Shown here piece after piece: positions 429-24,425 of a stretch of DNA of 64,000 bases (positions are counted from its first letter, which is position 1; the number at the start of each line of letters is the position of its first letter). The translations under genes and the position numbers were made by a program. The notes below the pieces were generated by a model. That model saw only the letters and a list, made by a program, of their open reading frames with translations, did not search any database and was not told the origin of the DNA. Where the stretch lies: positions 1 through 64,000 of the forward strand of contig JAJPGV010000011.1 of the NCBI GenBank assembly GCA_021325635.1, written 5' to 3'. Source of the DNA: Chloroflexota bacterium. GTDB taxonomy: Bacteria; Chloroflexota; JAJPGV01.

Positions 429-431
429 GCT

Positions 432-451
432 CAAAATCCTCCGTGATTTTG
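432..451 (-). promoter_or_regulatory. Shine-Dalgarno hairpin of flagellin 1 (candidate CsrA site)
   Basis: A perfect 7-bp stem (CAAAATC / GATTTTG) presents the loop ACGGAG, so the flagellin GGAGG is partly in the loop and partly in the stem. GGA in a hairpin loop overlapping the ribosome site is the known CsrA-binding arrangement. The identical hairpin lies before flagellin 2 (2362-2381), and csrA and fliW are in the same locus. CsrA binding is inferred. Confidence 0.6.
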
Positions 452-547
452 GGTCTTGGAAAGGATTTAGCCCGATCCCCTGGTGATCAGCCGGGACGTC
501 CTAATCCCAGGCTTCAGACCACGATAGGGGTCCGGGTGAGCTCGCGT

Positions 548-565
548 GATGACCTCCATTTCATC
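548..565 (-). promoter_or_regulatory. Second GGA-loop hairpin in flagellin 1 leader
   Basis: On the minus strand GATGA pairs with TCATC around an 8-nt loop containing TGGAGG. It is the counterpart of the stronger hairpin at 2534-2552 in the other flagellin leader. It is a plausible upstream CsrA site, comparable with the two-site arrangement known for the Bacillus hag leader. No start codon follows at a useful distance, so it is unlikely to be a ribosome site. Confidence 0.4.
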
Positions 566-594
566 CGAGGCCGAGCCAAACCGCGACGCGAGGG

Positions 595-627
595 TTATTG
601 GCGGGGCGTCGCTCCCGCCGGTTCCAT
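595..627 (-). CDS. Putative 10-residue leader peptide upstream of flagellin 1
   Basis: This tiny ORF encodes MEPAGATPRQ followed by TAA. A strong Shine-Dalgarno (AAGGAGGAGG) ends 5 nt before its ATG. The flagellin 2 leader has a matching ORF (2557-2619) starting MEAAGAALR with an equally good ribosome site at the same relative place. The two share M-E-x-A-G-A-x-x-R, with silent third-base differences at GGA/GGG and GCG/GCA. The stretch just after the ATG is GC-rich and can also fold into a hairpin (600-619), so RNA structure rather than peptide sequence may be what is conserved. Translation is not proven. Confidence 0.35.
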   Translation of the reverse strand: MEPAGATPRQ

Positions 628-708
628 CAGTGCCTCCTCCTTGGGCTGTGGAATCTCAGCAGAATCCAACCGGGCGCATCCATGCCCGGCATTTGGTCCT
701 TGCCGCGA

Positions 709-736
709 TTATCGGCACCGCCTGAAAAAACCTTTA
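709..736 (-). promoter_or_regulatory. Sigma-28-type promoter of flagellin 1
   Basis: On the minus strand TAAA, a 16-nt spacer and GCCGATAA match the FliA/SigD consensus; the -10 element is perfect. The predicted start near 702 leaves a leader of about 274 nt before the flagellin ATG at 428. The FliA-type sigma factor is encoded at 33815-34660. Confidence 0.85.
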
Positions 737-767
737 GGCCTGTTCGAATTCCATTCATGAGAAAGCG

Positions 768-801
768 AAGGGCGGCCCGCCGGACTTGGCGGGCCGCCCT
801 T
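768..801 (-). terminator. Rho-independent-type terminator after flagellin 2
   Basis: A perfect 14-bp GC-rich stem (AAGGGCGGCCCGCC and its complement) with a 6-nt loop starts 18 nt past the flagellin 2 stop codon. On the minus strand the trailing T-run is weak (TTCGCTTTC). It separates the flagellin 2 transcript from the promoter of flagellin 1. Confidence 0.8.
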
Positions 802-818
802 CTTTGCCGTCTTGCTGA

Positions 819-2357
819 CTACCGCAGCAGGGAAAGGATCGACGTGGGGGACTGGTTGGCTTGCGCCAAGACCGCCGTCCCGGCCTGCATCAGGATCTGG
901 TCCCTGGTGAACTGGACCGTCTCCTGGGCCACGTTCACGTCCTTGATGCGGGATTCCGCGGCGAGCGCGTTCTCCTGCGCCGTCGCATCGTTGTTGACCG
1001 AGTTGGTCAAGCGATTGATGACGGCACCCATTTGAGAGCGCGTCGAGGCGACCTGCTGAATGGCGCGATCCAGCTGGGTAATCGCCGTTTCCGCATCCGA
1101 CTGCGTGAGCACGTCGAGTGACGTAACGCCAAGCGTCTCAGTGTTCATCTGATCGACGATCAGCGAGAGCGTCTGGCCGGCGTTGGCTCCGACGTGGAAG
1201 GTGAAGGGCGAGTTCTGAGTCACGGTGAAGATGTCACCGCTGGTCAGATTGCCGGGGTTGGCCAGGGTGATGACCAAGCCGGCCGTACTGCCTGCGCCCT
1301 GGATGGTGTCGGAGTTGATGCCCAGAGCCGTCATCACCACGCCGTTGATGGTGATGGAGGCGTTCGACGCCACACCGGAAGCGAACAGACCGTTGGTGCC
1401 GATATGGCCAGCGACCGCATGTGTGCTGTTGAAGCCCATGCACAGGCCGCTCAGCGAGAAGTCACCGGTTGCGTTGAACGTTGTGACTAGGGTTGGGCCG
1501 CCAGTCAGGATGGTGCCGGCCGGGAAGGAGCCGCCGAGGCCACCGGCGATCAGCACCGACGTAGCGCCAGGGGCCGCAGAAGTGAGCGCCAACGCTGTGT
1601 TGATGCCGAAGTTGTTGTTGACGATCTCGACACGGCCATTGCTGGCTCCATCGATCTGCATGGTCACGCCGATGCCGGAGCCGTTGACGACCTGGAAGAA
1701 CGTCTCGAGCGATTCGCCGGCCTGCGCCGTGAAGGTTTCGGTCCCCAGACCGCCCTGGATGGTGATCGAGCTCTGCTGAGTGAAGAACGACCCCTGAGCG
1801 GAAGCCGCCTCGACTGCAGACTTGGTGGCCGCGGTGGCCGCGCTGATCGAGTAGGTAGTCGCGACCGCAACACCGGCTTGCGCCACGATTCCCTTGATGT
1901 CCGGGCCGCCGCCAACCACCTGAGCGCCGCCGGCCGAGCCGTCCAGCAGCTTCTTGGTGTTGAAGTCCGTTTGGCTGGAGATGCGGTCGATCTCGGAGAT
2001 CAGCTGGTTGATCTCGGACTGGATGTCCTGGCGGTCAGTCGTCGTCTCGGTGTCATTGGACGCCTGGACGGCGAGCTGGCGCATACGCTGCAAGATGTCG
2101 TGAACGGTGTTGAGCGCGCTCTCACCGGTCTGGATCATCGAGATGGCGTCCTGCGCGTTCATGCCGGCTTGCTGGAAGCCCCTGACCTGCGTTTGCAGGA
2201 CCTGGCTGATGGCAAGGCCGGCGGCATCGTCCGCGGCGCTGTTGATGCGCAGTCCCGAGGACAGCTGCTGCACCGCGTGCGAGAAGTCTGTCGACACGAC
2301 ACCCAAATTGCGCTGGGCGTCGAAGGCGTCGACGTTGGTATTTACGCGTACCGACAT
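819..2357 (-). CDS. fliC: Flagellin (512 aa, full length)
   Basis: Filament protein. Residues 1 to about 145 are the conserved N-terminal D0/D1 region. Residues from about 410 to 512 are the C-terminal D1/D0 region (SQMGAVINRLTNSVNN, VAQETVQFTRDQILMQAG) ending in SILSLLR, as flagellins do. The roughly 260 residues between them are a Ser/Thr/Gly-rich variable outer domain, a likely glycan acceptor given the adjacent glycosyltransferase array. A single cysteine at residue 306 (GLCMGF) is unusual, because most flagellins have none. The ATG at 2357 is preceded by a GGAGG inside a hairpin identical to that of flagellin 1. A sigma-28-type promoter lies about 340 nt upstream and a strong terminator follows the gene. 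Confidence 0.97.
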   Translation of the reverse strand: MSVRVNTNVDAFDAQRNLGVVSTDFSHAVQQLSSGLRINSAADDAAGLAISQVLQTQVRGFQQAGMNAQDAISMIQTGESALNTVHDILQRMRQLAVQASNDTETTTDRQDIQSEINQLISEIDRISSQTDFNTKKLLDGSAGGAQVVGGGPDIKGIVAQAGVAVATTYSISAATAATKSAVEAASAQGSFFTQQSSITIQGGLGTETFTAQAGESLETFFQVVNGSGIGVTMQIDGASNGRVEIVNNNFGINTALALTSAAPGATSVLIAGGLGGSFPAGTILTGGPTLVTTFNATGDFSLSGLCMGFNSTHAVAGHIGTNGLFASGVASNASITINGVVMTALGINSDTIQGAGSTAGLVITLANPGNLTSGDIFTVTQNSPFTFHVGANAGQTLSLIVDQMNTETLGVTSLDVLTQSDAETAITQLDRAIQQVASTRSQMGAVINRLTNSVNNDATAQENALAAESRIKDVNVAQETVQFTRDQILMQAGTAVLAQANQSPTSILSLLR

Positions 2358-2361
2358 TGTT

Positions 2362-2381
2362 CAAAATCCTCCGTGATTTTG
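2362..2381 (-). promoter_or_regulatory. Shine-Dalgarno hairpin of flagellin 2 (candidate CsrA site)
   Basis: Same 20-nt element as at 432-451: 7-bp stem CAAAATC / GATTTTG with loop ACGGAG. It overlaps the flagellin GGAGG, and the ATG follows at 2357. The surrounding leader sequences have diverged while this element is identical, which suggests selection on the structure. Confidence 0.6.
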
Positions 2382-2533
2382 GACACTACAACCCTGCGCT
2401 CGGCATGCGCCGGCCATCTGGCAGACAAAGCCATGCTCGAACCGTCAGGGTAATGACATGCCCACCGGTGAAGGCGCTGCTGCATCCGACGTCCCTGCCG
2501 AACACAACAAGGTGGGACATGCTTCAGCTCGTC

Positions 2534-2552
2534 GGATGACCTCCTGTCATCC
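2534..2552 (-). promoter_or_regulatory. Second GGA-loop hairpin in flagellin 2 leader
   Basis: A perfect 7-bp stem (GGATGAC / GTCATCC) displays the loop AGGAG on the minus strand. It sits just after the leader ORF stop codon and about 180 nt before the flagellin start, too far to be its ribosome site. A weaker version lies at 548-565 in the other leader. It is a candidate second CsrA site. Confidence 0.5.
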
Positions 2553-2556
2553 GCAT

Positions 2557-2619
2557 TCAGGCGAGCCAGCCCGCAGCGCTCAGGTTCAATGGGCGGAGCG
2601 CTGCCCCCGCCGCTTCCAT
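2557..2619 (-). CDS. Putative 20-residue leader peptide upstream of flagellin 2
   Basis: This small ORF starts MEAAGAALR, ends SAAGWLA and stops with TGA. Its ATG is 5 nt after an excellent AAGGAGG. The first nine codons resemble the leader ORF of flagellin 1 (MEPAGATPR); the rest differ and the lengths differ. It lies wholly inside the untranslated leader of a sigma-28 transcript. It could be a regulatory leader peptide, or its ribosome site could be a CsrA or ribosome decoy. A GC-rich hairpin (2592-2611) overlaps the codons after the start. Confidence 0.4.
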   Translation of the reverse strand: MEAAGAALRPLNLSAAGWLA

Positions 2620-2637
2620 TCGCACCTCCTTTTGCGA
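2620..2637 (-). promoter_or_regulatory. Third GGA-loop hairpin, over the leader-ORF ribosome site
   Basis: On the minus strand TCGCA pairs with TGCGA around the 8-nt loop AAAGGAGG, placing the leader ORF Shine-Dalgarno in a loop. The equivalent site in leader 1 (near 631-646) keeps the GGAGG but its stem is only about 3 bp. Confidence 0.4.
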
Positions 2638-2697
2638 GTGGATTACCAGGCACGAGATTCACCGGCATCCATTCCGGAATTCCGCGCCTCATGTCCA

Positions 2698-2725
2698 CTA
2701 TCGGCGTCCGGGGGCACTGACTTGA
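2698..2725 (-). promoter_or_regulatory. Sigma-28-type promoter of flagellin 2
   Basis: On the minus strand TCAA, a 16-nt spacer and GCCGATAG match the FliA consensus with one change in each box. The spacer length equals that of the flagellin 1 promoter. The predicted start near 2691 gives a leader of about 334 nt. Confidence 0.75.
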
Positions 2726-2879
2726 GCAGCACAAGCGATCTGCGACGACCTGACCAGCCGCGGCCAGGCCATAGGCTATGAGTACCAGCCATGCGCCTGC
2801 GCCGGCGGCTCTTCCTATACTGTGGGCACCGGCCGGCTGGCCTTGCTAAGGGGTGGCACAGGAGGTGCCGACTATCTAC
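2726..2879 (+). other. Intergenic region before the glycosyltransferase operon
   Basis: This is the divergent space between the flagellin 2 promoter and the first glycosyltransferase gene. A TATACT hexamer at 2816-2821 could be a housekeeping -10 box, but no convincing -35 lies 16-18 nt before it. I found no sigma-28 match on the plus strand. An AGGAGG at 2860-2865 is the best ribosome site for the gene that follows. Confidence 0.3.
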
Positions 2880-4532
2880 ATGGAAGTACCCGAAAGCGAC
2901 ATGCAGCCACATTCGACTATCTGCGCCTGCTTAATCGTTAAGAACGAGCAGGACAACCTCGCGCGCTGCCTGTCGAGCATCCGCTCCAGCGTGGACCACA
3001 TCGTTGTCGTGGATACCGGTTCGACCGACGATACCGTGGCCATCGCCGAATCCTTTGGCGCGGAGGTCTTCCACTTTGAATGGCGCGACGATTTTGCCGC
3101 TGCCCGCAACGAGTCCCTGTCGCACGCCCGCGGCGACTGGGTCATCTGGGTGGACGCTGACGACGAGCTCATGCAGGGTGCGCCGAACGCGCTGAGGCAG
3201 CTATGTGACGTCCGGCCAGGACCGGACTGGGGCTACTGGCTCGACGTCCGCAGCCCGTATGGCGAAGACGGCGAGCTCGAAGTAGCGGTCCGACAATGGC
3301 GGCTCTTTCGAAACAATCGCGGCGTGCATTTTCGCGGCCGTATCCACGAAGAACCCTGGCCGCCTCACACCATCCAGCCGTATCAGATCTTCGCCCAGGA
3401 TGACATTCGCATCCAGCACTGGGGCTACGTGCCGCAGGGCGACCGGATGCAGCACAAGTCCGAGCGGAACCGGCGCCTGCTGGAGCTTTCCATCAAGGAA
3501 GACCCCGGGAATCCCGGCCACCATTACAACCTGGGCCGGCAGCACATCCGCGAGGGCAACATGCAGGCGGCGATGGAGTCCATGCAGCATGCGCTCGATC
3601 TCTGGTTCCAATCCGGACAGCCGCCTTGGCTGTACGCGCACTCCATCTTTTCGTTCGCTGCCCTGGCAGCCGTGCAGCTGGGACAGTACGAGAAGGCCAT
3701 TGAGATAGAGCGGCGCGCCCCGGAGCACCTCTTGTCGGCCGAGCTGCTGTGCAGCTCCGGTGAAGCCATGTGGCGGTTGGGTCGCCGTGAGGAGGCCATC
3801 GCACGCCTGGAGCGCGCCTGCAACGACCCGCTCATGATCAAGGCCCACCTGCACGACCATCTCGCCTCGACCTGGCACCCGCTGCTCATGCTCAGCGGCC
3901 TGTACGACCAAACCGGCCGGCCCGAGCTTGGTTACGAGTGCGCCAGCAAAGCCATAGACTATGCTCCCAACCACCCCGAGATCCTGCTCGCGCTGGCGTA
4001 CCTGGGCGGGAAGGTGAACCGGCCTCGTGAGGAGCGGCTCAGCTGGCTGCGGCGCCTGCTGGACGGCGACCGAGACTTCGGCTTCAAGGCGCAAGCGCGC
4101 CGCCTCGTCCTCGACATGGCGACGACGGATAACGATCCCGCTCTGGCGCTGGAAGCCTTCTCCGGAGAGATCGCCGGAGTAACCGAGGAGCAGGCCATCA
4201 TCGTGCAGGCGGCTGCCTACGAACGAGTGGGCCGTCCGCAGGAGCAGTACGAGCTACTTGAAAAAGCCTCCAAAGATCGTCCGCAATCCGTACGAGTCCG
4301 ACTGGCGCTGGCCGATTTCCTCGAACGGCATGGCTACCCCACCGAAGCGCTGACAGCCCTGGCGCAAGGCCTCGAACAGGCTGACGCACCGGCCGAGCTC
4401 TACACTCGCCTGGCTGGGCTGCTGGCCAAGTGCGGACGGATGGACGACGCCGCGAATGCCCTGGAAATCGCCAGCAAGCTCACCCCGGCCGGCGGCAGCT
4501 CAGGCGTCGCGGCGGTGGCCGCCGCCACGTGA
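2880..4532 (+). CDS. GT2 glycosyltransferase with C-terminal TPR repeats
   Basis: One GT-A fold family 2 domain (about residues 12-220) is followed by TPR-like helical repeats to the end at 550. GT2 marks are the nucleotide-binding start (CACLIVKNE), VVDTGSTD, WVDADDEL (the metal-binding D-x-D region) and a GRIHE...HWGY tail. The domain order and motifs resemble SunS-type protein glycosyltransferases, in which a GT2 domain and TPRs recognise a polypeptide acceptor. Placed beside the flagellins, it is probably a flagellin glycosyltransferase; that role is inferred. I chose the ATG at 2880, 14 nt after AGGAGG. An in-frame GTG at 2853 would add nine residues but has no spaced ribosome site. The stop overlaps the next gene by GTGA. 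Confidence 0.85.
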   Translation: MEVPESDMQPHSTICACLIVKNEQDNLARCLSSIRSSVDHIVVVDTGSTDDTVAIAESFGAEVFHFEWRDDFAAARNESLSHARGDWVIWVDADDELMQGAPNALRQLCDVRPGPDWGYWLDVRSPYGEDGELEVAVRQWRLFRNNRGVHFRGRIHEEPWPPHTIQPYQIFAQDDIRIQHWGYVPQGDRMQHKSERNRRLLELSIKEDPGNPGHHYNLGRQHIREGNMQAAMESMQHALDLWFQSGQPPWLYAHSIFSFAALAAVQLGQYEKAIEIERRAPEHLLSAELLCSSGEAMWRLGRREEAIARLERACNDPLMIKAHLHDHLASTWHPLLMLSGLYDQTGRPELGYECASKAIDYAPNHPEILLALAYLGGKVNRPREERLSWLRRLLDGDRDFGFKAQARRLVLDMATTDNDPALALEAFSGEIAGVTEEQAIIVQAAAYERVGRPQEQYELLEKASKDRPQSVRVRLALADFLERHGYPTEALTALAQGLEQADAPAELYTRLAGLLAKCGRMDDAANALEIASKLTPAGGSSGVAAVAAAT

Positions 4533-7483
4533 GCAAGCAGCGACCACGGCGTCGGGCCGTGGCCCATCGCGCGAGGCCGGGGAGCCCCACGCAAGCGGCC
4601 GCCGCGCGAGGCGCGCTCAACGCTGCCCGGGGCGGGATTCCGGCTGGAAAGCGACCCACGGTTTCCGCCTGCCTCATCGTCAAGGACGAAGAGCTGAACC
4701 TGCCGCGCTGCCTGGCCTCACTCACCGGGGCGGTCGACGAAATAGTCGTCATCGATACCGGCTCGAGCGACAGCACTCAGGACCTCGCGCGCTCCGCGGG
4801 GGCAAAGGTCTTCCACTTCGATTGGTGCGACGACTTCAGCGCTGCCCGGAACGAGTCGCTCGCCCGCGCCAGCGGCGATTGGCTGATGTGGATCGATGCG
4901 GACGAACAGCTGGTGGAATCGGCCCCTGGTGCGCTGCGCGATCTGGCCGCGGCCGGCACGCCTTGGGGATACTTCATCGAGCAGCGCAGTCCACATACGG
5001 AAGATGAGAGCCGTGCTGACGTGGTGGTGCAGCAGTGGCGGCTGTTCCCCAACCGTCGAGGTATTCATTTCGAAGGCCGGATCCATGAGCATCCGGTTGC
5101 CCTCGAGTTCATCGACCCATCGGCCATTGGCCGCCAGGCAGCGGTCCACGTGCACCACTGGGGATATCTGCCTGTGCCCGACGTCTTGCAGCGCAAGGCC
5201 GATCGCAACCGCCGCCTGATCGAGCTCTCGCTGGAACGCGAGCCAGAGCAGCCCCGGCACTACTTCAACCTGGGGATGCAGCTCCTGGCTGAGGAGAGCT
5301 ACGCCAAAGCGGGTGAAGTGCTGCGCCGCGGCATCGAGCGCTGGTTCGTCTCACACGGCGCCGACGTCGGCTATGTGCCGGGCATGTTCGCCTCAGCCGC
5401 CAAGGCCGCGGTCATCGTCGGCGACTTCGCCGGGGCGCTCGAGCTCGAGGCAACAGTGCCTGAAGAGTTCGTCTCGTCCGAACTGCTGCTGGCAACAGGA
5501 TCGGCCTGCGCTCAATTGGGCCGCACCGACGACGCCATCGCCCGCTTCAATCGAGCTTGGAGCGACGCCGGCGCCCGGGAAAACATCCTTTACGACCGAA
5601 CCAGCATCTGGCGCGCTCTGCTGCTGCTCGCCCAGGTTTACGCTTCGATCGACCGAATAGGCGAAGCCCGCGAGGCCCTGCATCACGGGCTGGAGCTCTC
5701 ACCCGGCCAGCCGGAGCTTCTCGCCCAGCTCAATGCCCTGCCGCAACCACCACTTCTCACGCCCGATCTCGACAGGTTCACCAGCCTCGGCGGCGATGCT
5801 CAGCCGGCAATCTCCGCCTGCCTGATAGTCAAGAACGAAGAAGCCAACCTGCCTCGCATCCTCGAGTCCTTGAGAAGCGAGGTCGATGAGATCATCGTCG
5901 TCGACACCGGCTCCACTGATGGCACCGTCGAGATCGCACGATCGTCCGGCGCGCAGGTGTTCCACTTCCCCTGGCGCGACGACTTCAGCGCCGCCCGCAA
6001 CGCGTCGCTCAGCCACGCCAGCGGCGATTTCATCATCTGGGTCGACGCGGACGATCAGCTCCTCCCGTCGAGTCCCGGTGCGCTGCGCCGGCTGTGCACG
6101 GAGCTGCCCTTCGACTCCTGGGGCTACTGGGTCGACGTGCATTGCCCGACGGATCCATGGGACGAGAGCGTGGCCATCCTCAGGCAGGCCCGCATGTTCC
6201 GCAATCACATCGGCGTGCGCTTCCATGGCCGAATTCACGAGCAGGCAGCACCGCCACCACCTCATCCAGCCGGCGGCCTCACCTTCCAGAGCCAGGTGTC
6301 GATCAAGCATTGGGGCTACGTCGAGAGCGGCGACGTCCCCAAGCGACGGTCGGAACGAAACCGCCGGCTGCTGGAGCTGGCCATCGCCGACCGTCCGGAT
6401 AACCATTTCGATCGCTACAACCTGGGATTGCAGTACGCCGCGGAACGCGAGTTCGAGCAAGCGCTGGATGTGCTCGACCAGGCCATCGCGCTGTGGCTGC
6501 GCGATCCCGGGCCCGAGACCGGATTTGTGCCGGCGCTGTTCTCTACCGCCGCCATGGCAGCCGTCGAGATCCCCAACTACGAAGAAGCGCTGCGGATCGA
6601 AGCCCTGGCTCCTCCGCAATTCGTTTCCGCCGAGCTGCTGCTGCACGCCGGTATCGCCTGGTGGCGTCTTGGCCATCCACGAGAAGCCGTCGAGCGCTTT
6701 CTCAGAGCGGTGAACGACACTTCGGTCGTCAATCCCAACGTGCACGATCGCAGCACCGCGACGTGGCGGCCCTTACTGATGCTGGCTTGCGTCCAGGTGG
6801 AGCTCGAAGAGTACGAGGCGGCTTACGAGCACGGCCAGCGGGCGCTGCAGTTCGCCCCAACGCGGCCGGAGACGCTGTTCATCCTGGCCCACATCGCTCG
6901 TCAGCTGGGACTCATCGACGAAAGCCTGGCCTGGGCTCGCCGGCTCCTCGCCGGCCCCCGGGACGAAGGCTACTGCGCCAAGGCTCGCCAGCTGCTGCTC
7001 GGCATCGCCAACGAACGAAATGACGGAGCCCTCGCGCTGGAAGCGCTTGCCGGAGCCATCGAAGGCTTGCCCGAGCAGGAGGCCATTGTCGTCAAAGCGC
7101 GAGCGCACGCCCGCCTGGGCGACTGGCAGACGCAGTACATCACCCTGGACGATGGCTGCAGACGGTTCCCCACTGATCCCACCATTCGAATCGAGCTGAG
7201 CGAATGCTTGGAGCGGCAGGGCGCGCACTCGCAGGCACTCGTCGTGCTGGCCGGCGGTCTGGAAGATCCCGCTGCACCGGCCGCGCTGTATGAGCGAATG
7301 GCAGCCGTCCTGGGTCGCCTGGGCAGGTTGAACGACGCGGCCAACGCGCTCGCCATTGCCAAGGCAAGACGGCGAGCGACGGCCGCTGATTCGTCCATCG
7401 CGGCGGATGAACCCCGGCTGGCCGAAGATCCAGCCTCCTTCGCCGTCCGGACCGCACACGATAGGTCCGCGCTCGTAGCGTGA
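4529..7483 (+). CDS. Dual GT2 glycosyltransferase with TPR repeats
   Basis: A 984-residue protein built from two copies of the GT2+TPR unit. The first GT2 begins near residue 45 (VSACLIVKDE, VIDTGSSD, WIDADEQL) and the second near residue 426 (ISACLIVKNE, VVDTGSTD, WVDADDQL). Each is followed by the RIHE...HWGY element and TPR-like helices. The open frame extends back to 4430 inside the previous gene, but the GTG at 4529 overlaps the previous stop as GTGA. The next two junctions (7480 and 9846) show the same arrangement, so this start is preferred. The first about 40 residues are a basic, low-complexity tail. The likely role is adding sugars to flagellin or to a growing protein-linked glycan; the substrate is unknown. 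Confidence 0.85.
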   Translation: MSKQRPRRRAVAHRARPGSPTQAAAARGALNAARGGIPAGKRPTVSACLIVKDEELNLPRCLASLTGAVDEIVVIDTGSSDSTQDLARSAGAKVFHFDWCDDFSAARNESLARASGDWLMWIDADEQLVESAPGALRDLAAAGTPWGYFIEQRSPHTEDESRADVVVQQWRLFPNRRGIHFEGRIHEHPVALEFIDPSAIGRQAAVHVHHWGYLPVPDVLQRKADRNRRLIELSLEREPEQPRHYFNLGMQLLAEESYAKAGEVLRRGIERWFVSHGADVGYVPGMFASAAKAAVIVGDFAGALELEATVPEEFVSSELLLATGSACAQLGRTDDAIARFNRAWSDAGARENILYDRTSIWRALLLLAQVYASIDRIGEAREALHHGLELSPGQPELLAQLNALPQPPLLTPDLDRFTSLGGDAQPAISACLIVKNEEANLPRILESLRSEVDEIIVVDTGSTDGTVEIARSSGAQVFHFPWRDDFSAARNASLSHASGDFIIWVDADDQLLPSSPGALRRLCTELPFDSWGYWVDVHCPTDPWDESVAILRQARMFRNHIGVRFHGRIHEQAAPPPPHPAGGLTFQSQVSIKHWGYVESGDVPKRRSERNRRLLELAIADRPDNHFDRYNLGLQYAAEREFEQALDVLDQAIALWLRDPGPETGFVPALFSTAAMAAVEIPNYEEALRIEALAPPQFVSAELLLHAGIAWWRLGHPREAVERFLRAVNDTSVVNPNVHDRSTATWRPLLMLACVQVELEEYEAAYEHGQRALQFAPTRPETLFILAHIARQLGLIDESLAWARRLLAGPRDEGYCAKARQLLLGIANERNDGALALEALAGAIEGLPEQEAIVVKARAHARLGDWQTQYITLDDGCRRFPTDPTIRIELSECLERQGAHSQALVVLAGGLEDPAAPAALYERMAAVLGRLGRLNDAANALAIAKARRRATAADSSIAADEPRLAEDPASFAVRTAHDRSALVA

Positions 7484-9849
7484 AGGCCAGAAGGTCCCGT
7501 CCCGCCAGCTCGAATGGCGCCGGAATGACGGTTTCGGCGTGCATGATCGTACGCGACGAAGCTGCAAATCTGGCCCGGGCGCTGGACTCTTTGCGCGGAT
7601 GCGTCGATGAAGTCGTCGTGGTCGACACCGGTTCCAAGGACAACACCGTCGCAATCGCGCGTTCGTTTGGCGCCCGCACCTTCGAAATCGACTGGGCCAA
7701 TGATTTCAGCGCCGCCCGCAATGCCTCGCTGCAACAGGCGAAAGGCTCGTGGATCCTCTACGTCGACGCCGACGAAGAGCTCCGTGAAACCCAGCCAGGA
7801 GCGCTGCGGCGGCTGTGCCGCTCCCTCCCGAAGAGCGCGGCCGGGGCGTTCGTGACCGTCCATTGCCCGGTCGATAGCCAGGGCATGGCCGAAGAGGTGG
7901 CGGCGCAGTGCCGGCTCTTCCGAAACTCCTTGGGCCTCCATTTCGAAGGCCGCATCCACGAGCAGCTGCGGCTGCCTTCCGGTCGAACCCCCAGCAACAT
8001 CGCGGCCCCGAGCGCGGACGTCAGCCTGTACCACTGGGGCTACATTCCCGACGGCGACCTCATGCAGCGCAAAGGCGATCGCAACCGGCAGCTGCTGGAG
8101 CTCACCATCGCCGAGGATCCACTCCAGCCGGCGCACCATTTCAACCTTGGCCGCCAGCTCGTGTGGGAGGGACGATTCGATCAAGCCATCGCTCCCCTGG
8201 AGCAGGCAATGGCTCTGTGGCGTGAGCAGGGCCAACGCATGGAGGGCTACGCAGCCGCGATGTTCTCCACCGCGGCGCTGGCCATCTCGAAAGTGTCGCC
8301 TCCGGCCGCCGTGCTCGATCTCTTGGCGCGCACGCCGGCGGATGCAGTCTCCTCGGAGCTCCTGTACGTAGCCGGGGTCGCCTGCCTTAAGGCCGGTGAG
8401 CTATCCCGTGCGGTCGATTTGCTGAATCGAGCCTGGCAGGACCCGACGCTGGCAAAGAGCACAGGAACCGACCCCTCAACCTCCGGCTGGCGACCGCTCG
8501 CCGCGCTGGCCGAAGCCTACGACGGGCTGGGGCAGCGCGGGCGGGCAAAGGAGGCCCTGGATCGAGCCCTCGCTCTCGCCCCCGGCCATCCCGAGGTGAC
8601 CCGGCTTGCCGGCAGCCTCTCCGGAGCCGGCGCACGCTGCACCGTTTCGGCCTGCATGATCGTGCGGGACGAGGAGCGGCATCTTCGCGAATCGCTGCAA
8701 CGCGTTCGCCCCGCGGTCGACGACCTGGTGATTGTCGATACCGGCTCAACGGACGCCACCGTAACCATCGCCCAGGAGTTCGGCGCACGTGTGTTCCATT
8801 TCCCCTGGTGCGACGACTTCTCGGCTGCCCGAAACGAGTCCCTCCGCCATGCCTTGGGCGAGTGGATCATCTGGGTCGATGCCGACGATGAGCTCGTGGA
8901 GCAGGAATCCGGGGCGCTGCGCCGGTTGTGCTCGGAAGCCCCGGACGGCGTCTCGGCGTACTGGGTTCCCTGCCACAGCGTCAACAATGCGGAGGGTGAG
9001 GTCGGGGTCATCGTGAGGCAATGCCGGCTCTTCCGCAACCACCACGGCATCGAGTTCCGGGGGCTGGTGCACGAGCAGCCGCTTCTGGCCACGGCTCCAC
9101 TCGACCAGGACAGGGTATTCGTGCGGCACTGGGGCTACGTGGCCGATCCCCAGGTGCTGGCGGCCAAGTGCGAGCGCAATCGCAAGCTGCTGGAACGGTC
9201 CATCGCCGAAGCGCCGAGCGACGCCTTCCTGTACTACAGCCTTGGCAAGCAATACGTATGGCAGCATGCCTACGAGCAGGCCCTCGACGTGCTCAATCGG
9301 GGCCTTCGACGCTGGGAGCAGCTTGGCTCGCCCGAAGCGCCGTACGTGGGGCCGATGTTCGCCGTGGCCGCCTGCTGCGCGCTCAACCTCAGCCGCAATC
9401 CGGAGGCGTTAGTACTGGAAGACAGGTGCCCTCCGGCGGCCGTTTCGTCCGACCTCCTCTACTACGCGGCGATCGCCTGCCAGCGGCTGGAACGCCCGGC
9501 TGAAGCCATCTCCCGCCTGGAACGAGCGATCGACGACCCCACCGTCCGTCAGAGCACGGAAACCGATCCCACTACTGCTACTTGGCGGCCACTGCTGCTG
9601 CTGTCACAGATCAAGCTTGCGCTTGGCAACCAGACGGAAGCTTATGAAGCGGCCAGGCGCGCCATCGAGCTCGTGCCCGATCGCGCGGACGTGCTCATGA
9701 GCTGGGCAACGCAGGCCTGGCGCAGCGGCCACCCAGCCGACGCCGAGCGCACCGCCCGACGCATCCTCGAGCGCGTCGCCGACGAAGCCTATCGTCAGCG
9801 AGCAGCCCAGCTCCTTCACGAGATACAGGCCGCCGCGGTGCCAACGTGA
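7480..9849 (+). CDS. Dual GT2 glycosyltransferase with TPR repeats
   Basis: A 789-residue protein with two GT2+TPR units: GT2 domains start near residue 9 (VSACMIVRDE, YVDADEEL) and near residue 386 (VSACMIVRDE, VIVDTGSTD, WVDADDEL). Both keep the acidic D-A-D metal site and the HWGY element, so both look catalytically competent. It starts with GTG overlapping the previous stop (GTGA), and its own stop overlaps the next gene in the same way, so the four genes from 2880 to 11579 are probably translationally coupled. An alternative start is the ATG at 7504. It is a paralogue of its neighbours by internal duplication. A flagellin-glycosylation role is inferred from position. Confidence 0.85.
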   Translation: MKARRSRPASSNGAGMTVSACMIVRDEAANLARALDSLRGCVDEVVVVDTGSKDNTVAIARSFGARTFEIDWANDFSAARNASLQQAKGSWILYVDADEELRETQPGALRRLCRSLPKSAAGAFVTVHCPVDSQGMAEEVAAQCRLFRNSLGLHFEGRIHEQLRLPSGRTPSNIAAPSADVSLYHWGYIPDGDLMQRKGDRNRQLLELTIAEDPLQPAHHFNLGRQLVWEGRFDQAIAPLEQAMALWREQGQRMEGYAAAMFSTAALAISKVSPPAAVLDLLARTPADAVSSELLYVAGVACLKAGELSRAVDLLNRAWQDPTLAKSTGTDPSTSGWRPLAALAEAYDGLGQRGRAKEALDRALALAPGHPEVTRLAGSLSGAGARCTVSACMIVRDEERHLRESLQRVRPAVDDLVIVDTGSTDATVTIAQEFGARVFHFPWCDDFSAARNESLRHALGEWIIWVDADDELVEQESGALRRLCSEAPDGVSAYWVPCHSVNNAEGEVGVIVRQCRLFRNHHGIEFRGLVHEQPLLATAPLDQDRVFVRHWGYVADPQVLAAKCERNRKLLERSIAEAPSDAFLYYSLGKQYVWQHAYEQALDVLNRGLRRWEQLGSPEAPYVGPMFAVAACCALNLSRNPEALVLEDRCPPAAVSSDLLYYAAIACQRLERPAEAISRLERAIDDPTVRQSTETDPTTATWRPLLLLSQIKLALGNQTEAYEAARRAIELVPDRADVLMSWATQAWRSGHPADAERTARRILERVADEAYRQRAAQLLHEIQAAAVPT

Positions 9850-11579
9850 GCAAGAGACGGTATTCGAAGCGGAGGCCCGCTGCCGTCCAGCGGCAGTCGA
9901 GCCCACGGCCCACGCCTCTGGGGGACGCGTCGAGGGGTTTGTCCGAGCCGGCCCATGCCCTCCTCGGCGGCCAGGATTCGATTCACATCTCAGCGTGCCT
10001 GATCGTGAAGGACGAGGAGCGCAACATCGCGCGCTGCTTGAGCTCGCTCCGTCCCCTGGTCGATGAGGTTATCGTCGTCGACACCGGCTCATCCGACCGA
10101 ACGGCCGAGATCGCTCGGGAATTCGGCGCCAGCGTCCACCACTTCGCCTGGTGCGATGATTTCGCGGCGGCTCGGAATGCCTCGATCGAGCGCGCCAGCG
10201 GCGAATGGGTGGTGTGGGTCGATGCCGACGAAGAGCTGATGGAGCAGACCCCCGGCTCTCTGCGCCGCCTGTGCAGCGTACGAGATTCCAGCGACGGCTA
10301 CCTCGTGAGCTGCAAGAGCCTGTCCAACGAGCTCGGCGACATTGGCACGATCATCCGCCAGTTCCGGCTGTTCCGCAACCATCGCGGGCTGCGCTTCGAC
10401 GGCCGCATTCACGAGCACCTGATCCCGCCTGGCAGCTCGCGCCAGGTGCAGCTCATCCCGCAAGAAGACGTGTGGATCCGGCACTGGGGCTACATCCCCA
10501 CGGGTGACGTCCTCAAGCGCAAGCGCGACCGCAACTTCCCACTGCTGCAGCTCTCGGCGGCCGAGCATCCTGACGACCCTTTCATCCATTACAACCTCGG
10601 CAAGCAGTACAATGCCGAGCACCGATTCGAACCTGGCCTCGAAGCGCTGCGCAAGGCCATCGACCTGTGGACCCGGCAGGGCCAAACACCCTATGCGTTC
10701 GTCGGCAACATGTTTGCGCTGGCCATCAACGCCGCCGTCGAACTCGGGGAGAACGAGTTGGCGATTGAGATCGAGGCGTTGACGCCGGCGATGTTCCGGT
10801 CGTCGGATGTGCTGTTTCAGGCCGGGGTGGCGTTGATGCGGCTGCAGCGCCTGGACGAAGCCATGGAGCGCCTGAACCGCGCGTGGCAAGACCCTGTCGC
10901 GGCAGCTGGCATTGAAGTGGACCCCTCGAGCTCGACGTGGAGGCCGTTGGGCGCCCTGACGCACATCTACGTGGAAACCGGCAGACTGGCGGAAGCCTAC
11001 GCTACGGCGAAACGAGCGTACGAGCTGGCGCCCACACGGCCCAACATCCTCTACGCCCTGGCCTTCGTCTGCGGACGCATGGGGCACACCGATGAGGCCG
11101 CGCGCTGGGCTCGCGAGCTCATCGCCGGTGAGCTCGACGAGGGATTCAAGTCCCAGGCTCGCCGCATCCTGGTCAACATTGGCCGAGGAACAGGCAACGC
11201 CGGCCTGGTCCTGGAGGCGTTTTCCGGCCCCATCCACGGCCTGACCGAGGAGGAAGCGGTCGCCATCCGGGCGGAAGCTCACGCCCAGGCGGGCAATCTT
11301 CAAGCGCAATACGACACCCTTGATGCCGGCTGCCGACAATTCCCGTCGAACAGCTCGATTCGCCTGGCGCTGGCCGCCGTGCTCGAGTCACAGGGCTATG
11401 TCCAGCCAGCCATCAACGTCCTGTCTGCCGGACTCGATCAGCCGGCGCCCAGCAGCGAGCTCTATCAACGGCTGGGCGTGCTGTTAGCCAAAGCGGGACG
11501 TCTCGAAGACGCTGCCAACGCCTTCACCCTGGCCGCGATCCCGGCGGCCGAGCACTCCACGGAAGCCGTCGAGGTCTAG
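9846..11579 (+). CDS. GT2 glycosyltransferase with TPR repeats
   Basis: A 577-residue single-unit paralogue. A basic N-terminal tail of about 45 residues leads into one GT2 domain (ISACLIVKDEERN, VVDTGSSD, WVDADEEL, GRIHEHL, RHWGY). About 350 residues of TPR-like helices follow. The GTG start overlaps the previous stop (GTGA), and the N-terminus (MSKRRYSKRR) resembles that of the gene at 4529 (MSKQRPRRR). The organisation is the same as the first gene of the array and SunS-like. The acceptor and sugar are unknown; flagellin is the likeliest acceptor by context. Confidence 0.85.
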   Translation: MSKRRYSKRRPAAVQRQSSPRPTPLGDASRGLSEPAHALLGGQDSIHISACLIVKDEERNIARCLSSLRPLVDEVIVVDTGSSDRTAEIAREFGASVHHFAWCDDFAAARNASIERASGEWVVWVDADEELMEQTPGSLRRLCSVRDSSDGYLVSCKSLSNELGDIGTIIRQFRLFRNHRGLRFDGRIHEHLIPPGSSRQVQLIPQEDVWIRHWGYIPTGDVLKRKRDRNFPLLQLSAAEHPDDPFIHYNLGKQYNAEHRFEPGLEALRKAIDLWTRQGQTPYAFVGNMFALAINAAVELGENELAIEIEALTPAMFRSSDVLFQAGVALMRLQRLDEAMERLNRAWQDPVAAAGIEVDPSSSTWRPLGALTHIYVETGRLAEAYATAKRAYELAPTRPNILYALAFVCGRMGHTDEAARWARELIAGELDEGFKSQARRILVNIGRGTGNAGLVLEAFSGPIHGLTEEEAVAIRAEAHAQAGNLQAQYDTLDAGCRQFPSNSSIRLALAAVLESQGYVQPAINVLSAGLDQPAPSSELYQRLGVLLAKAGRLEDAANAFTLAAIPAAEHSTEAVEV

Positions 11580-11583
11580 CGAC

Positions 11584-14500
11584 ATGGCCAAGATGAAGCC
11601 ACAGAAGCAGACGAGCCGGCCGCGCCTGAGCATCGTCATCCCAGCGTATCGCGCCACGACCCTGGCACGCTGCTTGGAAAGCGCCCGCGCAACGACGGTC
11701 GAGTGCGAGATCGTCGTCGTGGACGACGCTTCCCCGGACGACCTGCGATCCGTCGTAGAGCCGCAGGCGGCGGCCGATCGTCGCCTGCGATTCGTCCGCA
11801 ACCCTTCCAACCTGGGCATACCGGCCAACTTCAATCAATCGCTGCGGCAGGCCCGCGGACGGTACATCTGCATGCTCGGCGACGACGACGAGTTCCTACC
11901 CGGAAACTTCGAGAAGAAGCTGGCGCTGCTTGACGCCAATGCGGATATCGGCTTCGTGTATTCGCGCTGGAACGGTGTCGACGAGAACGGCCAGGTCATC
12001 AACGGCGGATCGGGGCTGCATGCCAAGCTGTCGTACCTAGGCGGCCGGCGAGAATTTGCCGACCTGTTTACGGGCAACTACATCAATCTGGCCACGATTG
12101 TCTTCAGACGCCGGCTGTTCGAGGAGCACGGCGGCTTCGACGAGGGCATCATCACCCTGTGCGACTGGGATCTTTTCCTGCGCTGGGCGTATCACTGCAA
12201 GACCGCGTTTCTCGCCGAGCCGCTGGCCAACGTGATGAGCCATCAGGCCAGCGACACCAACCAACGCGGGATCCGGCAGCAGCAGTTTGCCAGGGACAAG
12301 CTGCAGGTGTGGCGCAAATGGCTCATCGAGCGCGAACCGCCGCTGGCCATCGACGAGGAAACCTGGCTCCGAATGGCGCAGTTCTACAACGCCGACCTGG
12401 CACACTGGTTCGGCGAGGATGCCTCGACCATCAACCAGTATCGTCAGCAGTTCGACGAGCTGCAGCGGGACTACCAGGACCGGATGCCACGCCGCTATGC
12501 GCAGGCCGCGGCTCAGTTCAGCCAGCTCAAGCCGGAGGGACGAGCCCGGACCGGCAATCGCCCCAAGCTGAGCATCCTGGTGCCTGCTTACAACCGGCCC
12601 GACATGCTGAGCGAATGCCTCGACAGCTTGGCGAGCGCGCCGGCCGACTGCGAGATCCTCGTCGTAGATGACTGCTCACCGACAGACCTCAGCGCCACCG
12701 TGGCCCGCTTCTCAGAGCAGGATCCTCGCATCTCTTTCGTACGAAACGAGACCAACCTCGGTCCGACGAAGAATTTCAACAAGGCCATTTCGCTCGCTCG
12801 AGGAAGCTGCTTCTGCATCCTGGGCGATGACGAGACCGTCCTGCCAGGCAACTTCGAGAAGAAGCTGGCCATCCTGGATGCTCATCCCGAGGTCGGCCTG
12901 GTCTACTCCCGCCACTTCTACACCGACGGCGCGAACCAGAACATGGGGCTGGCGTTGTGGCCAGGGATGGTTCACTACTCCTACATCGGCGGTCGAGACG
13001 AGTTCCGCGACCTGCTGCCCTGGAACTACATCTCCCTTCATTCGGTGGTGTATCGCAAAGCGCTATGGGAGCGGTACGGCGGCTTCGACGAGGCCATTAC
13101 CGAATGCGGCAACGACTGGGAAATGAACATCCGTTACTCCTTCTACAGCCAGACGGCCTACATCGACGAGCCGCTGCTGAACGTCCGCGTCCACGAAGGA
13201 GCCACTACGCGGCGCATGGGCTTGCTGCAGGAGAAGCTGGCCTCCGGCCGGATTGAAGTTTGGCGGAACTGGCTGGTCAAGCGTGACGAGCCCATAATCC
13301 TGGACGACCGCGGCTGGGCGCACATGTACAACCTCTACGTCCGCGACCTCAACTTCTGGTTTCAGAACCGTCCGGATCTGGTCCAGAAGTGGCTGACCGA
13401 ATTCGATGGTTTGAAGCGGGAGGCGAGCGCCCAGGCGTCCAAGCACTTTGTGGAACGGGTCCCCTGGGCAACGACGCCGGTCGCGCAGCACCCCGCACCG
13501 CCTACGGTTCAAGCGGTGACAGCGGAAGGCCAACAGAGCGCCGCGCCGTCTCCTGCTGGCCCCACTCCAACTCCTGTTGCCTGGGAGGGCGGCTTCTTCG
13601 AGACGCACAGTCTGGCGCTGGTGAACCGCGAGCTCGCCCTGGCCATGCTGCGCACCGGGGAGGTTGACGTCAGCATTACCCTGCGTGAGCTGGAGCCCAT
13701 CAAGTTCGACCCGCGGGCCGACCCCACGCTGGCTCCGCTGGTGAACCGTGTTGGAAAGGCGTTGGCTGGCGGTCCGGCGGTCTACATCCGCCACGCCTGG
13801 CCTCCGGTTTTCGAACGTCCGGCCGCGGGCAAGTGGGTCATGGTCCAGCCCTGGGAGTACGGCGCCCTGCCCACGGATTGGGTTGCCCCCATGCGCGACC
13901 AGGTCGACGAGATCTGGGCCTACAGCAACGCCGTTCGGCAGATGTACATCGACAGTGGAGTGCCGGGCGAAAAGGTCTTTGTGGTGCCCTGTGGCATCGA
14001 TCGTCGCCACTTTCGGCCCGGCGTCAAGCCGGTGGACCTGCCTACCAAGAAGTCGGTCCGTTTCCTGTTCGTGGGCGGCACCATCTGGCGAAAGGGCATC
14101 GACCTGCTGCTCGAGGCTTACACCAAGACCTTCCGCCGAACCGACGACGTTTGCCTCGTGATCAAGGACATGGGCCAGGACTCTTTTTACCGGGGCCAAA
14201 CGGCAGCCGAAACCATTTCCCGGCTCCAGGCAGACCCCCTTGCGCCCGAGATCCTGTACGTCACGGGGACGTTGCGCGACAGCGAGATGGCTTCGCTGTA
14301 CAACGCCTGCACGGCTCTCGTGCACCCTTACCGGGGTGAGGGATTCGGGCTGCCGGTAGCCGAGGCGATGGCCTGCGGGCTGCCGGTGGTCGTCACCCGC
14401 GGAGGGGCCTGCGACGACTTCTGCAGCGACATCACCGCCTATTTCGTGGACGCCACACGCGTGCCGATCTCCCTTCAGATGGAGACGAGCGGGACGCCCT

Positions 14501-16908
14501 GGGTGCTGAGCGCCAACGTCGAGGCTCTGGCCGAGCAGATGCGCGCGGTCTTCGAGGCGCCTGGCGAGGCTCGTGTACGGGGCACCCGCGCCTGCGAATG
14601 GGTTCATCAGAACCTGTCCTGGGAGGCGGCCGCCGACAAGGCCCTGGCGCGCATTCGTGCGCTCGGCGGAAGCAGCTCGCCCAGCCCGACCACCTCCGAG
14701 CAGAAGATCGTCATCTCCGCCAGCGACGGTAAGAACGCAGCGCGTGCGGCCTTCGAGCAGGGCAAGGTCGCCATCAACAATGGAGACAATCAAGCGGGTG
14801 AAGAGCACCTCATGCGCGCCGTGGAGCTGGACCCGGACCTGGCCAGCGCCTGGTACCTGATCGGCGCCGCCCGCATGAACCTCGGCCGGACCCGCGACGC
14901 CATCCCGGCCTATGAGAAGGCGGTAGCCCTGCGGCCGGACGTCAGCGATTTTCACAACGGTCTCGGCAGCGCGCTGTCGATGACCGAGGAGGGCGTGCAG
15001 CGCTCGGCCGAGTGCTTCCAACAAGCGTGGCGGCTCGATCCCAATAACGTTCGCGCCTGGCTGAACTGGGCCGACGTCGCGCTGCTGTTTGGGGACTGGA
15101 ACGCCGCTCAAATCGCGGTGGAGCAGGTTCGCAGGCTTGCGCCGAACGACGAGCAGCTGCACTGGCTCGAGCACGACCTGGCCAACGACAAGGCCGTGGC
15201 AAACGCCGAGATCCGGCCCATTCCCCCCGCGCCTGAGCTCGACCGGTTGGCATACCGGCCGCTGATCAGCGTGCTCGTCCCGATCCACGACGTCCCAGTG
15301 ACGTATTTTGAAGAGCTGGTGGAGTCGCTGCTGCAGCAGAGCTACCCGAACTGGGAGCTCTGCGCGGTGGATGATGCGTCCACCGACGACCAGCTGAAGG
15401 CGTATCTACGCGAGGCGCAGCTCAAGGACTCGCGCATCCGGGTCACCTTCCTCAGCGAAGGCAGGCGAATCTCAGGCGCAACCAACGTGGCGCTGGACAT
15501 GGCCGAGGGAGAGTACGTGGCCTTCCTCGACCACGACGACCTGCTCGATCCGGAGGCCTTCATCTACGTTGCCGGCGCCCTGAACGACGATCCGAGTCTC
15601 GACGTGGTGTACAGCGACGAGGACAAGCTGACCCTCGACGGCCATTACGTGGAGCCGCATTTCAAACAGGGCTGGTCGCCGCAGCTGCTGCTGTCGAGCA
15701 TGTACATTCCGCACCTGCTCGTCATCCGGCGCCACGTCGTGCAACAAGCCGGCGGGCTGCGCTCCGAATACGACGGGGCGCAGGACTTCGACCTGGCGCT
15801 GCGCGTGACGGAGCTCACGCAGCGCATCCGCCACGTCCCGGTCATGCTGTATCACTGGCGGCGCATCCCCGGATCGACCGCGGTGAGCATCGATGAGAAG
15901 CCGTACGCCTTTTACGCCGGCCAGCGGGCAGTCACCGATGCGCTGAAACGGCGAGGCATCGATGGGACTGTCGACCTTGGCTACTACCCCTGCACCTACC
16001 GAGTGCGCATGACCCTTCCGCCGAATCCGAAGGTCAGCGTCATCATCCCTACGCGCGACCGCGCCGACTCGCTTCGCCGCTGCATCACCTCGGTCGATGG
16101 CTCACGGCAGGACGCGAGCGTCGAGTACATCGTCGTGGACAACGGCAGCGTCGATCCGGGGGCGCGCCAGCTGCTTCAGCAAATCGAGGCTGCGCCCAAC
16201 GGCAAGGTCATCAGCTACAACGAGCCGTTCAATTACGCGGCCATGAATAACCTCGGCGCTCGCCATGCCAGCGGCGACCTGCTCCTCTTCATGCACGACG
16301 ACATCCAGCCGGCTCGCGAAGGCTGGCTGCAGGCGCTGCTGGAGTTCGGCCTCTTTCCGGGAATCGGCGCCGTCGGCTGCTGCCTGATCTTCGGCTCGGG
16401 GGAGCATCGTATTCAGCACGCAGGCATGGTGCTGGGGCTGGCCGGCGTGGCCGGGAACCTGCACCGCGGCATGCCCTGGGCACACACCGCTATCCTGGGT
16501 CCGAGGCGTATCACGAACTATTCGGCTGTGAGCTTCGCCTGCGGCATGGTTCCTCGCGCGGCGTTCGATGCGATTGGCGGATTCGACGAGGCCTTCGCCC
16601 GCGAGTTTGGCGACGTCGACTTCTGCCTCCGCCTACGGCAGGCGGGGCTTGGGATCGTCTACACGCCATTCGCCACGATGATCCACCACACCGCTCTACC
16701 CTGGCAGATCAGCCACACCGGGCCAAACGACTCACCCGAAGCCAAACTGATGGTTGAGCGTTGGGGCGATCTCATCGAAGACGACCCCTTCTTCAATCCG
16801 AACATTCCCAGGGTGAGCGAAGACTTCACCCGCTGGCACTCTATCCACTACCCCAACATCGCCCCCCGCGTGCTCGAGCTGCGGCGGCGGGTCGCAATTC
16901 CGAGCTGA
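11584..16908 (+). CDS. Giant multi-domain glycosyltransferase (GT2-GT2-GT4-TPR-GT2-GT2)
   Basis: A 1774-residue protein with five glycosyltransferase modules. GT2-1 begins near residue 13 (LSIVIPAYRA, VVVDDASPDD, GDDDEF). GT2-2 begins near 328 (LSILVPAYNRP, VVDDCSPTDL, GDDETV). A Pro-rich linker leads to a GT4 module (about 665-1030; FLFVGGTIWRKG, HPYRGEGFGLPVAEAMACG). TPRs cover about 1050-1200. GT2-3 begins near 1224 (ISVLVPIHD, AVDDASTDD, LDHDDLLD) and GT2-4 near 1481 (VSVIIPTRDRADS, VVDNGSVD, MHDDIQP). Such fusions usually assemble a whole oligosaccharide repeat. The ATG is 5 nt after the previous stop, so it belongs to the same operon. It probably extends or builds the glycan whose first sugars are placed by the upstream enzymes; that division of labour is inference. 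Confidence 0.88.
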   Translation: MAKMKPQKQTSRPRLSIVIPAYRATTLARCLESARATTVECEIVVVDDASPDDLRSVVEPQAAADRRLRFVRNPSNLGIPANFNQSLRQARGRYICMLGDDDEFLPGNFEKKLALLDANADIGFVYSRWNGVDENGQVINGGSGLHAKLSYLGGRREFADLFTGNYINLATIVFRRRLFEEHGGFDEGIITLCDWDLFLRWAYHCKTAFLAEPLANVMSHQASDTNQRGIRQQQFARDKLQVWRKWLIEREPPLAIDEETWLRMAQFYNADLAHWFGEDASTINQYRQQFDELQRDYQDRMPRRYAQAAAQFSQLKPEGRARTGNRPKLSILVPAYNRPDMLSECLDSLASAPADCEILVVDDCSPTDLSATVARFSEQDPRISFVRNETNLGPTKNFNKAISLARGSCFCILGDDETVLPGNFEKKLAILDAHPEVGLVYSRHFYTDGANQNMGLALWPGMVHYSYIGGRDEFRDLLPWNYISLHSVVYRKALWERYGGFDEAITECGNDWEMNIRYSFYSQTAYIDEPLLNVRVHEGATTRRMGLLQEKLASGRIEVWRNWLVKRDEPIILDDRGWAHMYNLYVRDLNFWFQNRPDLVQKWLTEFDGLKREASAQASKHFVERVPWATTPVAQHPAPPTVQAVTAEGQQSAAPSPAGPTPTPVAWEGGFFETHSLALVNRELALAMLRTGEVDVSITLRELEPIKFDPRADPTLAPLVNRVGKALAGGPAVYIRHAWPPVFERPAAGKWVMVQPWEYGALPTDWVAPMRDQVDEIWAYSNAVRQMYIDSGVPGEKVFVVPCGIDRRHFRPGVKPVDLPTKKSVRFLFVGGTIWRKGIDLLLEAYTKTFRRTDDVCLVIKDMGQDSFYRGQTAAETISRLQADPLAPEILYVTGTLRDSEMASLYNACTALVHPYRGEGFGLPVAEAMACGLPVVVTRGGACDDFCSDITAYFVDATRVPISLQMETSGTPWVLSANVEALAEQMRAVFEAPGEARVRGTRACEWVHQNLSWEAAADKALARIRALGGSSSPSPTTSEQKIVISASDGKNAARAAFEQGKVAINNGDNQAGEEHLMRAVELDPDLASAWYLIGAARMNLGRTRDAIPAYEKAVALRPDVSDFHNGLGSALSMTEEGVQRSAECFQQAWRLDPNNVRAWLNWADVALLFGDWNAAQIAVEQVRRLAPNDEQLHWLEHDLANDKAVANAEIRPIPPAPELDRLAYRPLISVLVPIHDVPVTYFEELVESLLQQSYPNWELCAVDDASTDDQLKAYLREAQLKDSRIRVTFLSEGRRISGATNVALDMAEGEYVAFLDHDDLLDPEAFIYVAGALNDDPSLDVVYSDEDKLTLDGHYVEPHFKQGWSPQLLLSSMYIPHLLVIRRHVVQQAGGLRSEYDGAQDFDLALRVTELTQRIRHVPVMLYHWRRIPGSTAVSIDEKPYAFYAGQRAVTDALKRRGIDGTVDLGYYPCTYRVRMTLPPNPKVSVIIPTRDRADSLRRCITSVDGSRQDASVEYIVVDNGSVDPGARQLLQQIEAAPNGKVISYNEPFNYAAMNNLGARHASGDLLLFMHDDIQPAREGWLQALLEFGLFPGIGAVGCCLIFGSGEHRIQHAGMVLGLAGVAGNLHRGMPWAHTAILGPRRITNYSAVSFACGMVPRAAFDAIGGFDEAFAREFGDVDFCLRLRQAGLGIVYTPFATMIHHTALPWQISHTGPNDSPEAKLMVERWGDLIEDDPFFNPNIPRVSEDFTRWHSIHYPNIAPRVLELRRRVAIPS

Positions 16909-18926: not shown

Positions 18927-18963
18927 CGAACTCGACCATGGGACCCATCCTCGACACGCCGGT

Positions 18964-23691: not shown

Positions 23692-23718
23692 TAATCGACA
23701 GGGGGTAGGAAAGCTTTA
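23692..23718 (-). promoter_or_regulatory. Sigma-28-type promoter of flgL-fliW-csrA
   Basis: On the minus strand TAAA, a 15-nt spacer and GTCGATTA match FliA boxes (6 of 8 in the -10). The TAAA box overlaps the TAA stop codon of cysC. It predicts a transcript starting near 23685, about 65 nt before the flgL ATG. Confidence 0.7.
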
Positions 23719-24357: not shown

Positions 24358-24425
24358 TGGGACCAATGGCGGCCGGAACGGCCCAAGAGGCCATACTCAG
24401 AGCCAGCACTTTCATTCGGGACGAC

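Follow-up and report, generated by a model that had tools for sequence, protein, structure and literature searches.

We analysed a stretch of 64,000 nucleotides (nt) from a draft Chloroflexota genome of 4.64 Mb (G000:C52:1-64000; hereafter the window), in which two flagellin genes with long mRNA leaders occur together with csrA and fliW. We think it likely that these leaders are sites of translational control, where CsrA would repress flagellin synthesis, FliW would relieve the repression, and an RNA pseudoknot would organise the leader. CsrA-FliW control is a well-supported prediction; CsrA binding, FliW antagonism, and every function of the pseudoknot are what we infer from the sequence. A preliminary description of this DNA had proposed a CsrA-FliW switch on the two leaders. 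Comparison across the phylum backs CsrA control, but the earlier picture was incomplete, since it lacked several sites, the leader of a third flagellin, an alternative pairing of the Shine-Dalgarno (SD) sequence in leader 1, and the pseudoknot.

Flagellin leaders and their GGA-loop hairpins

Flagellin 1 (1-428) is truncated by the contig start and flagellin 2 occupies 819-2357; these genes, their leader elements, and the csrA-fliW locus are all on the minus strand. Sigma-28-type promoter elements precede both genes, at 709-736 for flagellin 1 (TAAA-N16-GCCGATAA, read 736-709) and 2698-2725 for flagellin 2 (TCAA-N16-GCCGATAG, read 2725-2698), giving leaders of ~275 and ~335 nt. A third flagellin begins at C22:475 on a separate contig, and its leader carries the same kind of promoter (TAAA-N16-GCCGATA). 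Contig C22 opens with the tail end of a flagellin gene and contig C52 starts within flagellin 1, so a single tandem array of all three genes is probable. A G+C-rich long inverted repeat lies between flagellin 2 and leader 1 (window ~765-805), consistent with a terminator separating transcription units.

The SD of flagellins 1 and 2 is covered by an identical 20-nt hairpin that places GGA in a hexaloop (432-451 and 2362-2381; stem CAAAATC/GATTTTG, loop ACGGAG), and this 20-mer has only these two sites in the assembly when up to three mismatches are allowed. Further upstream, hairpin P4 presents GGA in its loop at 548-565 in leader 1 (GATGA/TCATC around AATGGAGG) and at 2533-2553 in leader 2 (CGGATGAC and GTCATCCG around AGGAG). 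P4 is enclosed by a stem, P3, spanning 540-576 in leader 1 (GCTCG 576-572 / CGAGC 544-540) and formed by 2566-2562/2531-2527 in leader 2. A third GGAGG, site 1, stands upstream of a short open reading frame (ORF) in the leader; in leader 2 it forms a clear hairpin over the SD of this ORF (2620-2637; TCGCA/TGCGA, loop AAAGGAGG), and in leader 1 it has no clear hairpin (628-642, AAGGAGGAGG). Additional GGA loops are found at 491-510 in leader 1 (CTGGGAT/GTCCCGG, hexaloop UAGGAC; GGA unpaired 1.0), in a long hairpin of 14 pairs, many of them G-U, at 2477-2510 in leader 2 (hexaloop AGGGAC), and near both 5' ends, at 669-690 (GCCGGGC/GCCCGGU around AUGGAUGC, loop AUGGAUG; GGA unpaired ~1.0 in the ensemble) and 2662-2677 (a weak 4-bp stem CCGG/CCGG around AATGGATG; GGA unpaired 0.99). 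The sigma-28 promoters, the leader lengths (given earlier as 270-330 nt), the matched SD and P4 hairpins, and a third GGAGG that is in a clear hairpin only in leader 2 had all been described correctly, whereas the count of two matched hairpins plus one was too low, having missed 491-510, 2477-2510, and the 5'-end loops, and the hairpins-only picture overlooked the pseudoknot, the most distinctive element of the leaders.

Counting hairpins with a stem of at least 5 bp and GGA within a loop of 5-8 nt, and taking dinucleotide shuffles as the chance level, we find four in leader 1 (shuffle mean 0.64, p 0.003) and four in leader 2 (0.67, p 0.006). Strict hexaloops of the form NNGGAN are UAGGAC and ACGGAG in leader 1, AGGGAC and ACGGAG in leader 2, and none in leader 3. 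The 60 nearest genomes are all from the same phylum and none is from the same class, so stem conservation was checked on the three paralogous leaders and on distant members of the phylum. Among the paralogues, P4 is retained in all three with GGA in its loop (GGGAU in leader 3), though the top of its stem varies; the SD hairpin is missing in leader 3, where the SD GGA is paired in a stem. Measured by position, 59, 122, and 41 nt separate the SD site from the next hairpin in leaders 1, 2, and 3, and the range over which one CsrA dimer bridges an upstream site and an SD site is 10-63 nt (PMC7652899).

CsrA and FliW

The genes csrA (21540-21791; 83 aa) and fliW (21801-22274, assigned by Pfam) adjoin each other where the preliminary description had located them, beside a flagellin-family gene upstream of fliW that is probably flgL (22284-23618). 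Both score far above the Pfam cut-offs, and the best PDB matches of the two proteins are chains of the Geobacillus FliW-CsrA complex (5DMB/5JAK). Residues L4, R44, and N55 of CsrA are present by inspection and kept in sequence alignments to 5DMB and 1T3O; L4 and R44 presumably bind RNA. CsrA of this organism appears to keep its RNA-binding residues together with a FliW-binding C-terminal extension. An N55D variant of CsrA was used in an earlier study (PMC6529632).

GGA hexaloops follow CsrA across the phylum

To the flagellin-bearing genomes among 400 genomes of the phylum we added one Sphaerobacter record, which is itself untyped and was counted as CsrA-positive by family; one leader from a genome untyped for CsrA was omitted. 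CsrA is present in 35 of the 42 flagellin-bearing phylum genomes and FliW in 31 of 42. The 58 flagellin leaders of CsrA-positive genomes contain 46 strict hexaloops against 4.0 expected (~11-fold over shuffles), mostly 30-50 nt ahead of the start codon, and the 11 leaders of genomes without detected CsrA contain 2 against 0.62 expected. A hexaloop at -50 to -30 occurs in 35/58 CsrA-positive leaders versus 1/11 CsrA-negative ones (Fisher p 0.002, counting each leader as independent), or, by family, in 10 of 15 versus 1 of 4. The signal is particular to GGA: 13.6% of its occurrences lie within such hexaloops, compared with 0-2.1% for the control trinucleotides AGG, GAG, GGC, GGU, CGA, GCA, and UCC, none of which shows a like enrichment. 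A comparison set of 43 leaders, mostly from Firmicutes and untyped for CsrA, has 20 hexaloops against 2.7 expected. The hexaloop-bearing leaders of the phylum have the arrangement of Bacillus hag and Campylobacter flaA, and CsrA control of flagellin is likewise predicted in many CsrA-bearing relatives.

Individual leaders of the set also merit mention. In the leader of flagellin G046:C63 (L015), the GGA hexaloop CCGGAG is followed in tandem by another, ACGGAG, which covers the SD region, much like flaA. In two CsrA-positive genomes where FliW was not found (G103 and G376), hexaloops of the GGGGAAGGAUCCCC type stand ahead of flagellin-family genes (L128 and L129).

A conserved pseudoknot in the leaders

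Between site 1 and P4, H-type pseudoknot pairing is possible in all three leaders, with a stem S1 of 6 bp, a stem S2 of 7 bp, one nucleotide between them, and a connecting loop of 10-12 nt. It occupies 583-619 in leader 1 (S1 619-614/605-600, S2 612-606/589-583, connecting loop 599-590) and 2573-2611 in leader 2 (S1 2611-2606/2597-2592, S2 2604-2598/2579-2573). S1 pairs GGCGGG with CCCGCC (UCCGCC in leader 2), so that one pair changes from G-C to G-U, and S2 is GCGACGC/GCGUCGC in leader 1 and GCAGCGC/GCGCUGC in leaders 2 and 3, two pairs being altered on both sides. Scored by stacking, leaders 1 and 2 rank second and third among 374 tiles of the window, and none of 30 shuffles per leader matches the pseudoknot score. 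When only nested folds are allowed, S1 and S2 compete, S1 being preferred in leaders 1 and 3 and S2 in leader 2.

The pseudoknot begins within ~10 nt of the start codon of the possible leader ORF, the translation of which is putative. This ORF has 10 codons in leader 1 (595-627, MEPAGATPRQ), 20 in leader 2 (2557-2619), and 12 in leader 3, and in all three a GGAGG lies ~6 nt ahead of the ATG.

In the window region no Rfam family came near its cut-off (the best match, which lies outside the leader, reached 24.4 bits where 80 are required), and the loci of 15 relatives gave nothing credible, with no match in flagellin leaders. A model of the three leaders (R1) finds, in its own genome, those leaders and one stray partial match, and in other genomes of the phylum eight weak matches, none near a recognisable flagellin. 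One leader from another family (L099, genome G192) has the same pseudoknot layout with S2 GCGCGGCG/CGCCGCGC, an independent look-alike. High values in the pseudoknot scan are also reached by leader L116, from a CsrA-negative genome, and by L010, and such a score is therefore no proof by itself.

A smaller motif of the same topology is found in the Sphaerobacter-like family f46, where GGUCAACCGGGnGCGACGCCGnACGGUCGC is common to the flagellin leaders and precedes a hairpin with a GGA hexaloop; the element of genome G467 is identical, letter for letter, to that of Sphaerobacter sp. Bu17. A model built from nine f46 sequences using S2 and the hairpin only (R2) matches flagellin leaders in 13 genomes of the class, one of them from family f95 (L164). 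The remaining two matches in the class, L163 and L165, are weak and were set aside as lying in coding DNA. In the 13-row alignment A5, built with S1 left out, pairing holds in 98.4% of cells, five pairs show changes on both sides, and no shuffle reaches the covariation score. In S1, a G-C pair has become C-G in a single genus, and so probably by one event. Most leaders of f46 do not score above shuffles for the pseudoknot by itself, and the case rests on the pair counts. The f46 leaders resemble those of the window in the order of their elements (GGAGG near the 5' end, a central S1/S2 motif, a GGA hexaloop hairpin, and a GGA-rich SD) and in a common 12-mer (GGGAGCGACGCC), but their S1 has just 3 bp, the connecting loop is short, the hexaloop lies at ~-40, and there is no leader ORF. 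Because R2 gives no match in the window's own leaders, we do not claim homology between the two motifs.

Proposed mechanism and alternatives

We propose that CsrA dimers bind several of the GGA loops, including the SD loop of flagellins 1 and 2, and would thereby block ribosome entry. Export of flagellin would free FliW, which would then bind CsrA and lift the block. The pseudoknot most likely organises the leader and would keep the GGA hairpins from mispairing; it may also stabilise the abundant flagellin mRNA, and ribosomes entering at the leader ORF may open it.

Several observations weigh against this proposal. Leader 3 has one GGA-loop hairpin, no excess over shuffles (p 0.32), and lacks the SD hairpin, and none of the three leaders has the hexaloop at about -40 that is typical of the phylum. 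Whole-leader ensemble folds, which are nested only and cannot score the pseudoknot, favour an AAAUCC/GGAUUU pairing over the SD hairpin in leader 1 (GGA unpaired ~0.1-0.16) and leave its P4 GGA partly paired elsewhere; in leader 2 they form the SD hairpin (~0.9). As the three leaders are paralogues of one genome, covariation in the pseudoknot rests on few events, and the shuffle control of the three-row alignment is weak (45/500 shuffles). In the phylum comparison, leaders of one family are not independent, and the CsrA-negative group comprises 11 leaders from 4 families, with some genomes incomplete (down to 81%).

The AAAUCC/GGAUUU pairing, which is predicted to hide the SD in leader 3 as well as in leader 1, would be an alternative to loop presentation of the SD in these two leaders. 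That it acts without CsrA, with temperature or a different factor opening it, is very unlikely in our judgement, as the pairing is missing in leader 2 and would leave the GGA loops and their association with CsrA unexplained. An abundant mRNA with many GGA hairpins could also serve as a sink for CsrA in addition to being its target. The four GGA-loop hairpins in each of leaders 1 and 2 and the titration of CsrA by the Campylobacter jejuni flaA leader (PMC4894983) speak for this, but the number of sites by itself is no demonstration of titration; we regard it as a tentative possibility, compatible with repression by CsrA.

Two further explanations give the central part of the leader a larger role. 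CsrA might block translation of the leader ORF, so that ribosomes on the ORF, by opening the pseudoknot, would alter access to the flagellin start. The GGAGG before each ATG and the nearness of the pseudoknot fit such coupling, for which Escherichia coli iraD, repressed by CsrA via a leader ORF, provides a precedent (PMC5574718). In iraD, however, the stop codon of the ORF and the start of the gene overlap, and when we looked for this overlap in leaders 1 and 2 it was absent: the ORFs end at 595 and 2557, ~170-200 nt short of the flagellin starts at 428 and 2357. ORF length also varies among the three leaders, and the GGAGG of f46 leaders has no start codon after it, which leaves coupling doubtful. 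Alternatively, the pseudoknot could be a riboswitch-like or protein-binding sensor that controls flagellin, with CsrA secondary. Its occurrence in all three leaders, the look-alike in L099, the smaller motif in f46 and one f95 leader, and the Rfam results are in keeping with a sensor, but for an aptamer the sequence outside the stems is modestly conserved, the leaders revealed neither an expression platform nor a terminator, and homology with the f46 motif is unsupported; we consider it quite unlikely. A version in which flagellin leaders of the phylum use the pseudoknot as a new regulatory RNA class, one that works together with CsrA and responds to a ligand, to a protein (FliW, CsrA, or flagellin), or to translation of the leader ORF, seems to us unlikely.

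Neighbouring genes

Beside the flagellins, window 2853-16908 holds a run of large family-2 glycosyltransferases, possibly for flagellin glycosylation; the Pfam search covered four of the proteins, each with matches that include TPR repeats, and the run has a fifth member at 11584-16908. Around the flagellar genes, 16919-20394 and 23716-24366 encode a sulfotransferase-like protein, two sulfatase-family matches (one just below the cut-off), and an APS kinase, making sulfation of surface or flagellar glycans possible.

Relation to known systems

FliW-CsrA control of flagellin is already known from Bacillus and Campylobacter. In Bacillus subtilis, hag is repressed by CsrA bound at two sites of its leader, of which one covers the SD, and FliW relieves the repression (PMC7652899). 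The window resembles this system in its tandem fliW/csrA genes and in 5'-leader GGA sites, one over the SD and one upstream (PMC7652899, PMC6529632). As the preliminary description had stated, the leaders here are longer and have more sites, in the form of additional GGA hairpins; they also differ from hag in having a leader ORF and a pseudoknot, and in that their CsrA sites are sequence-based predictions. C. jejuni flaA likewise presents GGA in leader hexaloops and is subject to FliW antagonism of CsrA, but has two stem-loops 21 nt apart (PMC4894983), compared with at least 4 sites over 280-340 nt plus the pseudoknot. The leaders share with E. coli iraD the presence of several CsrA sites (here predicted) and of a GGA site that overlaps the SD of a short ORF (PMC5574718).

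At the level of titles and abstracts, the open-licence literature yielded no account of FliW-CsrA flagellin control in Chloroflexi and none of a flagellin-leader pseudoknot. Across the members of a deep phylum, the comparative test ties flagellin-leader GGA hexaloops to whether CsrA is present, and the leaders of the window also hold a structured element that no Rfam family matched; both results give direct predictions for the bench.

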